Assembly: GCA_017535865.1 (NCBI GenBank)
Contig: JAFXTM010000090.1
Location: forward strand, 1-45,271
DNA length: 45,271 nucleotides
Source of the DNA: Oscillospiraceae bacterium
Lineage (GTDB): Bacteria; Bacillota; Clostridia; Oscillospirales; Oscillospiraceae
Reading direction: 5' to 3'
Numbering within the stretch: position 1 is the stretch's first letter; the number at the start of each line of letters is the position of its first letter. Shown here piece by piece: positions 39,696 through 39,861 of the stretch. A program made the translations under genes and the position numbers. Below the pieces are notes generated by a model. The model did not search any database. It saw only the letters and a list, made by a program, of their open reading frames with translations, and had not been told where the DNA came from.

Positions 39696-39735
39696 AAAAA
39701 CAGAGACTCCGACGCTCCGAAGAGAGCCGGCTCTG
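39696..39735 (-). terminator. Riboswitch expression platform: intrinsic terminator
   Basis: On the minus strand CAGAG, CCGGC, CTC, a TTCG tetraloop, GAG, GTCGG and CTCTG fold into a stem with one mismatch and one three-base bulge, followed by TTTTTC. The 3' strand of the aptamer P1 (CGAAGA) can instead pair with TCTTCG in the terminator loop (39718-39723), which would act as the antiterminator when no ligand is bound. Confidence 0.75.
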
Positions 39736-39742
39736 GAGTTTT

Positions 39743-39813
39743 CTTCGATAGTCCGGTCATTTACGGTGTCCGGGTAGAGACGTCAAATCCATATCATTTG
39801 CTTATATCGAAAG
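39743..39813 (-). promoter_or_regulatory. Guanine (purine) riboswitch aptamer
   Basis: Minus strand, in order: P1 5' strand CTTTCGATA, J1-2 TAAG, P2 CAAAT, L2 GATATGG, P2' ATTTG, J2-3 ACGTCTCT, P3 beginning ACCCGG with loop ACACCGTAAATGA and CCGG, J3-1 ACTA, P1 3' strand TCGAAG. The loops carry the kissing sequences of the purine class. The specificity base in J3-1 is C, so guanine or hypoxanthine, not adenine. U47 and U51 equivalents are kept, arguing against the 2'-deoxyguanosine variant. It precedes the BMP transporter operon. Confidence 0.93.
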
Positions 39814-39832
39814 ACTATTCAATTACACTCTT

Positions 39833-39861
39833 ATGGTATCAGCCGGGCCCCGAAAAGTCAA
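39833..39861 (-). promoter_or_regulatory. Promoter of the riboswitch-BMP transporter operon
   Basis: TTGACT at 39856-39861, 17-base spacer, TACCAT at 39833-39838. The aptamer begins about 13 bases after the expected start. Together with the riboswitch, platform and leader hairpin this accounts for the gene-free stretch 39526-39961. Confidence 0.82.

Follow-up and report, generated by a model that had tools for sequence, protein, structure and literature searches.

A canonical guanine riboswitch upstream of a BMP-type ABC importer operon predicted to carry purine bases in an Oscillospiraceae bacterium

The window analysed here, a stretch of 45,271 nucleotides from an Oscillospiraceae bacterium, carries on its minus strand, in this order, xpt, an inverted repeat, a promoter-like site, a purine riboswitch and the genes for a BMP-type substrate-binding protein, an ABC ATPase and two permeases. 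The initial annotation had placed a riboswitch upstream of a BMP-type ABC transporter, and a BMP-ABC operon does follow the aptamer. The genes and the elements between them are as follows.

40549-39962, minus: xpt, xanthine phosphoribosyltransferase (NF006671, 247 bits, cut-off 177; TIGR01744, 231 bits, cut-off 164)
39956-39922, minus: perfect 15-base inverted repeat, then T-rich sequence, the probable xpt terminator (from the sequence)
39861-39833, minus: promoter-like site TTGACT-17-TACCAT, its second hexamer preceded by TG (consensus match only)
39829-39729, minus: guanine-class purine riboswitch aptamer (RF00167, covariance search)
39525-38344, minus: BMP-type substrate-binding protein, 393 aa (PF02608, 83.4 bits, cut-off 24.1)
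38197-36668, minus: ABC ATPase, start codon uncertain (PF00005 in two stretches)
36675-35575, minus: ABC permease (PF02653)
35570-34587, minus: ABC permease (PF02653)

Due to the order of xpt, inverted repeat, promoter-like site and riboswitch, the riboswitch most likely has its own transcript, with xpt outside its control. The site at 39861-39833 would serve the riboswitch as a separate promoter downstream of the xpt terminator. Of 62 leaders examined, 43 have a promoter-like site ahead of the riboswitch, a count made without a chance control. These 62 belong to the 71 unique leaders obtained from 87 collected; eight of the 71 (L018, L068, L079, L081 and L129-L132) are not of the xpt-riboswitch-BMP kind of the genus. 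A scan for terminator-like sites did not list the inverted repeat at 39956-39922. Control of the window xpt gene by the riboswitch was rejected, as this gene precedes the riboswitch and has an inverted repeat of its own behind it. The transporter operon is directly followed by genes for a repressor of the BlaI/MecI type and an M56 peptidase sensor of the BlaR1 type (34483-31596, minus).

The aptamer is a canonical guanine riboswitch, real and well conserved, and is predicted to bind guanine. A covariance search with the Rfam purine model, the check suggested in the initial annotation, gave a full-length match (model positions 1-102) of 67.6 bits against a gathering cut-off of 37, with an E-value of 7.3e-10. 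The three helices, loop partners, J2/3 and specificity C described previously are all legible on the minus strand at 39829-39729: P1 is formed by 39813-39805 with 39750-39743, P2 by 39800-39784 and P3 by 39773-39753, the L2 and L3 loops can be read, J2/3 is GUCUCUACC, and the specificity position, C74, is 39751, in agreement with the guanine class assigned earlier. The base before U75 is a C in all 71 unique leaders. In the RF00167 alignment, P2 has one gap or bulge position and P3 one A-A mismatch, and the loops and core are otherwise aligned. Both of the J2/3 changes that had been pointed out, C at the 45 and 48 equivalents, are present; C45 stands opposite G25 in the alignment, so that the pair is retained as G-C, and C48 was found again in 14 of 70 tallied J2/3 variants. 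The adenine class is ruled out by C74 and a chance fold by the E-value of 7e-10. No other Rfam family matched the window at its gathering score, and the riboswitch of the window is the single purine riboswitch found in its own assembly (2.48 Mb, 80.5% complete).

The nearest relatives of the BMP protein are found in records titled Ruminococcaceae, Oscillospiraceae or Clostridia MAGs, several of which are named after ruminant gut samples. Among the BMP loci compared, the best 80 of 570 relatives, 35 have an RF00167 match (18/20, 6/20, 3/20 and 8/20 in successive batches); a riboswitch could be missed at L020 and L063, where just about 500 and 580 bases, respectively, precede the BMP match. Within the genus, a purine riboswitch was found in 49 of 61 sampled genomes, and in 22 of the 23 with a completeness of 90% or more and a contamination of 5% or less, while 11 of the 12 genomes with no match are less than 90% complete. 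Similarly, a DNA search with the leader gave matches in 82 of 102 genus genomes. Of the 52 riboswitch matches in the genus sample, 47 have a BMP gene behind them on the same strand; L096, which lies on a short stretch, is without a BMP match, and in L129-L132 the riboswitch precedes other genes. In 40 of 48 cases (the 47 with BMP plus L096) the riboswitch is preceded by an xpt gene on the same strand, within 310 bases in 38 of these 40 and at 764 and 1326 bases in the other two.

Some members of the set have a different arrangement. In L018, L068 and L081 the order is riboswitch-xpt-BMP rather than xpt-riboswitch-BMP, and xpt is therefore probably inside the regulated unit. The match in L129 (1516-1618) precedes an apparent PNP/UDP-type phosphorylase gene, and that in L131 (1538-1642) a gene that we take, from the appearance of its sequence, to encode an adenine deaminase (an amidohydrolase by Pfam); the gene behind the match in L132 (1570-1676) resembles it. 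The purine-family match in L130 (1528-1625), upstream of a MatE-family transporter gene (1671 onward), has a changed core with G for A before C74, and an altered ligand is possible.

Downstream of the aptamer, the leader contains the following elements.

39748-39739, minus: 3' strand of P1 plus flank (UCGAAGAAAA), able to pair with the P1 5' strand or downstream (folding, covariation test)
39735-39701, minus: hairpin A, TTCG tip, -16.0 kcal/mol, the terminator of the initial annotation (folding)
39700-39690, minus: UUUUUCUUUGG, with which the P1 3' strand is proposed to pair when no ligand is bound (folding, covariation test)
39691-39667, minus: hairpin B, a second intrinsic-terminator-like hairpin, -16.0 kcal/mol (folding)
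39621-39610, minus: small hairpin CCGC..GCGG (sequence and folding)
39602-39568, minus: long hairpin GUGCCGGGG..CCCCGGCAC (sequence and folding)

A single terminator with a TTCG loop and a T-run had been described for this leader. That hairpin is indeed present at 39735-39701, followed by TTTTTCTT, with UUUUUCUU at 39700-39693, but a second and more conserved hairpin had been missed: hairpin B, which is followed by G and T5 at 39665-39661, lies outside the interval annotated at first (39696..39861). By one common detection rule, 63 of 71 unique leaders have a B-type hairpin with a U-tract and 30 of 71 an A-type hairpin with a U-tract; four dinucleotide shuffles gave 9-19 of 71 and 2-5 of 71, respectively. 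The partner segment UUUUUCUUUGG doubles as the U-tract of hairpin A and shares its final two bases with the start of hairpin B. The simplest interpretation is that hairpin B acts as the main terminator, the U-run behind hairpin A being at least partly the complement of the A-rich 3' strand of P1. It is also quite possible, if somewhat short of an even chance, that A and B act as tandem terminators, both terminating in the presence of guanine and thereby giving a tighter shut-off in the sub-clade of the window: both hairpins have U-tracts in the window, L090, L002 and L119, both types are found together in 26 of 71 leaders, and each type exceeds its shuffles. However, sequence cannot separate the use of A from that of B, and U-richness after hairpin A need not mean termination, as this tract also complements the A-rich P1 3' strand. 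The leader illustrates that the main terminator is not necessarily the first T-run hairpin downstream of an aptamer.

How the aptamer would communicate with these hairpins depends on the partner of the P1 3' strand when guanine is absent. In the model put forward initially, hairpin A is the sole regulated terminator and CGAAGA of the P1 3' strand (39747-39742) pairs with UCUUCG in its loop. The complementarity to TCTTCG (39723-39718) is there, the duplex has -8.1 kcal/mol in the window and -6.8 kcal/mol in the near relative L090, compared with mismatched means of -3.6 and -3.0, and a U-tract follows hairpin A. In addition, the loop pairing makes up 0.38 of the ensemble of a transcript ending at 39717, and in a crude simulation it reached 0.23 without and 0.12 with a ligand bonus. 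Against this stand the fall of the loop pairing to at most 0.01 once hairpin A is complete, the occurrence of an A-type terminator in just 30 of 71 leaders and the behaviour of the leader set: no covariation was seen between the P1 3' strand and the interior of hairpin A, 4255 of 5000 permutations being as good as the matched pairs over 53 leaders and 4513 of 5000 over 19 dereplicated leaders. We therefore regard this exact switch as unlikely.

The same test gave a different result for the segment before and at hairpin B. Over 58 leaders, the mean energy of its pairing with the P1 3' strand is -7.63 kcal/mol when matched and -6.29 when permuted (sd 0.24), a value reached by 0 of 5000 permutations; over 23 dereplicated leaders the means are -8.17 and -6.41, again with 0 of 5000. 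When the pre-B segment was paired with just the variable portion of the P1 3' strand, 2 of 5000 (58 leaders) and 15 of 5000 (23 dereplicated) permutations were as good. The 58 and 53 leaders tested for the two partners are those of the 71 that have a P1 3' strand starting UAUCG and a detected B hairpin and, for the hairpin A partner, also an interior of at least 8 bases. Permutation values, like Fisher values, overstate independence here, as the relatives share descent. The signal of the pre-B partner sits in the mean and not in single leaders, of which 9 of 58 beat their own shuffles at p < 0.05, compared with 2 of 53 for the hairpin A partner. The window leader could form either pairing, and each is stronger than the mismatched means. 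In the window the proposed partner shares just two bases with hairpin B, and in some relatives, among them L004 and L009, none at all; its pairing with the P1 3' strand is absent from the minimum free energy structure of some truncated leaders.

Folded at equilibrium with P1 left free or forced, the window leader gave no clear ligand dependence: hairpin A forms at 0.97-0.99 just after its synthesis with or without P1, and for hairpin B the values are 0.92-0.95 when P1 is left free and 1.0 when it is forced. With B half made, forcing P1 lowered hairpin A to 0.04-0.87, an effect that is outside the proposed mechanism. A crude co-transcriptional simulation gave hairpin B at 0.16 and hairpin A at no more than 0.06 in both ligand states, values that say little, as the leading structures lack the native P3.

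We propose that guanine would close P1 and leave the downstream sequence free, so that an intrinsic terminator, mainly hairpin B and perhaps also A, would end transcription ahead of the BMP gene. If guanine is absent, the 3' strand of P1 would instead pair with the U-rich stretch that separates the two hairpins, extending into B by two bases in the window and further in several relatives, and this pairing would favour read-through and thereby the uptake of guanine or related bases.

Besides the terminator-like hairpins, BMP leaders repeatedly contain a hairpin just upstream of the ribosome-binding site (39621-39568 in the window; L004, L019, L085, L098, L113 and others), often with an outer UAUC/GAUA stem and an inner stem of variable sequence. 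Among 125 upstream regions, duplicates included, 25 distinct GAUA-closed hairpins were found, three of them weak (-2.4 to -3.3 kcal/mol), in a count without a chance control. The hairpin is also present in L012 and L047, which have no riboswitch. Within the incomplete genome of the window, the leader stretch before the ribosome-binding site showed no repeat elsewhere (one match each).

With regard to the substrate of the transporter, a purine base or nucleoside had been predicted from the riboswitch. Members of the BMP family are best known for nucleoside binding and the riboswitch senses guanine, which need not be the cargo, so that the transporter could carry nucleosides, like PnrA or NupN, with guanine signalling only purine sufficiency. 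We consider this improbable, as the family profile is far closer to base-binding proteins and the usual neighbour, xpt, encodes a base-salvage enzyme. The profile, compared with PDB sequences, gives 3s99 (E 3.7e-40) and AtzT, 6pi5 (E 5.3e-31), as the nearest solved chains, followed by 4p98 (7.6e-10) and 2hqb (5.8e-6). Chains of tmpC and related lipoproteins of the PnrA type, which we take to be nucleoside binders, score between 1.3e-3 and 1.9e-3, near evident chance matches such as streptavidin (3e-3). As described in the available text on AtzT, this protein was found with guanine bound and has a KD of 0.11 uM (110 nM) for guanine and 2.5 uM for adenine, and adenine was modelled in 3s99, a BMP protein of Brucella (PMC6834077). 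Ser97, Phe98, Glu165 and Trp194 of AtzT correspond to S94, F95, E177 and W206 of the window protein and are invariant in 20 aligned relatives, the AtzT numbering resting on an offset of five that we infer and that agrees at these four residues. The guanine-contacting residues Asn218 and Asn220 are H230 and D232 in the window protein, as in 3s99, and no clear equivalent of Tyr45 emerged from the alignment. The purine prediction is backed independently by the protein relatives, by the xpt neighbour and by PurBox-like sites of orthologous operons described below, but it can be narrowed: judged from these sequences, a purine base is a better guess than a nucleoside. This provides a testable substrate for a group of BMP transporters encoded in many Clostridia MAGs from the ruminant gut. 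The start of the BMP protein resembles a signal peptide (39525-39440, minus), and no lipobox cysteine is present in it; relatives including L004 and L033 have one, and of 73 BMP proteins encoded downstream of riboswitches, duplicates included, 43 have no lipobox as judged by a simple rule.

The relatives of this operon that have no riboswitch point to a second mode of control. PurR and its PurBox regulate purine transport and salvage, according to the accessible parts of two reports (PMC8789054, PMC3547956). We scanned about 300 bases before the BMP gene at the same 80 of 570 loci with a PurBox pattern in which one base was relaxed (AWWWNCGAACWWT; consensus as printed in the excerpt of PMC3547956: AWWWCCGAACWWT), allowing at most one mismatch. 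PurBox-like sites were found at 22 of 45 riboswitch-free loci (shuffled expectation 2.15) and at 0 of 35 loci with a riboswitch (expectation 1.10); exact sites were found at 9 of 45 and 0 of 35, respectively. In the window, no PurBox-like site with at most one mismatch lies within 700 bases upstream. PurR (TIGR01743) was searched for in the genomes of 66 of the 80 loci, in batches of 16, using the family cut-off, and 50, using E <= 1e-30, where one match (L067) is partial and under the family cut-off; in the first of these searches, a looser default threshold gave matches in all 17 genomes via other phosphoribosyltransferases. PurR was present in 27 of 45 genomes of riboswitch-free loci (9/12 and 18/33) and in 0 of 21 searched genomes of riboswitch loci (0/4 and 0/17). 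It was likewise found in 0 of 102 genus genomes, with B. subtilis and L. lactis positive as control genomes, and the 80.5% complete genome of the window has no PurR above the cut-off. Among the 45 riboswitch-free loci, PurBox-like sites accompany PurR in 19 of 27 cases, compared with 3 of 18 without PurR. All of these riboswitch, PurBox and PurR counts are over relatives that share descent.

In this lineage the riboswitch may stand in for a protein repressor that seems to control the same genes in some relatives, and in this genus it appears to substitute for PurR/PurBox control on the same operon. A swap of regulators is not universal, as PurR is lacking as well in 18 of the 45 riboswitch-free genomes. 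One might speculate further that the whole genus went through a swap from protein to RNA control: PurR repression of a base-specific BMP-ABC importer would have given way to a guanine riboswitch with a relayed switch, which runs from the P1 3' strand to a pre-terminator segment, encloses a spacer hairpin and is accompanied by tandem terminators in some members, and the recurrent leader hairpin before the ribosome-binding site would have joined it; as a whole, we hold this proposal to be tentative and rather doubtful. An orthologous operon with either a guanine riboswitch or PurBox-like sites offers a natural comparison of RNA and protein control.

Taken together, we propose, with a probability of roughly 0.75, that the BMP-ABC importer takes up purine bases and that its operon is under the control of a canonical guanine riboswitch, which most likely acts as a transcription-terminating OFF switch. 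The aptamer, the terminator-like hairpins, the gene order and the conservation of all of these are directly established; the OFF direction of the switch is plausible, and its ligand dependence we infer from the riboswitch class and its conservation.

The riboswitch type is already known, and the window presents a further canonical guanine riboswitch, here on a BMP-ABC operon. Among open-licence papers, with looser matches judged by title and the start of the abstract, none was found that pairs a guanine or purine riboswitch or RF00167 with BMP, and the pairing is unmentioned in the available portions of PMC3766115 and PMC9295807 (0 term matches). The purine riboswitches of Clostridioides difficile are similar in that they are clostridial, belong to the guanine class and target purine transport and xpt; the table of that report lists four targets, guaA, two AgzA-family permeases and xpt, and the term "bmp" is absent from its main text (PMC11477304). 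On the protein side, AtzT (6pi5) and 3s99 are the closest solved relatives, and the Ser-Phe pair, the Glu and the Trp of AtzT are kept, whereas its Asn218 and Asn220 are replaced by H230 and D232, as in 3s99 (PMC6834077, in part). The PurR/PurBox system resembles the present case in that purine transport is regulated and PurBox-like sites occur upstream of part of the orthologous BMP operons; it differs in that the window has no such site and that its own genome and genus have no PurR. The closest parallel for the RNA is the xpt-pbuX guanine riboswitch of Bacillus subtilis, which has a terminator-based OFF expression platform and shares with the window the RF00167 class, C74, the predicted terminator-based OFF logic and the association with purine salvage genes. 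Unlike in B. subtilis, xpt lies upstream of the riboswitch in the window and is probably uncontrolled by it, a BMP-ABC importer is the regulated target, and two terminator-like hairpins follow the aptamer.
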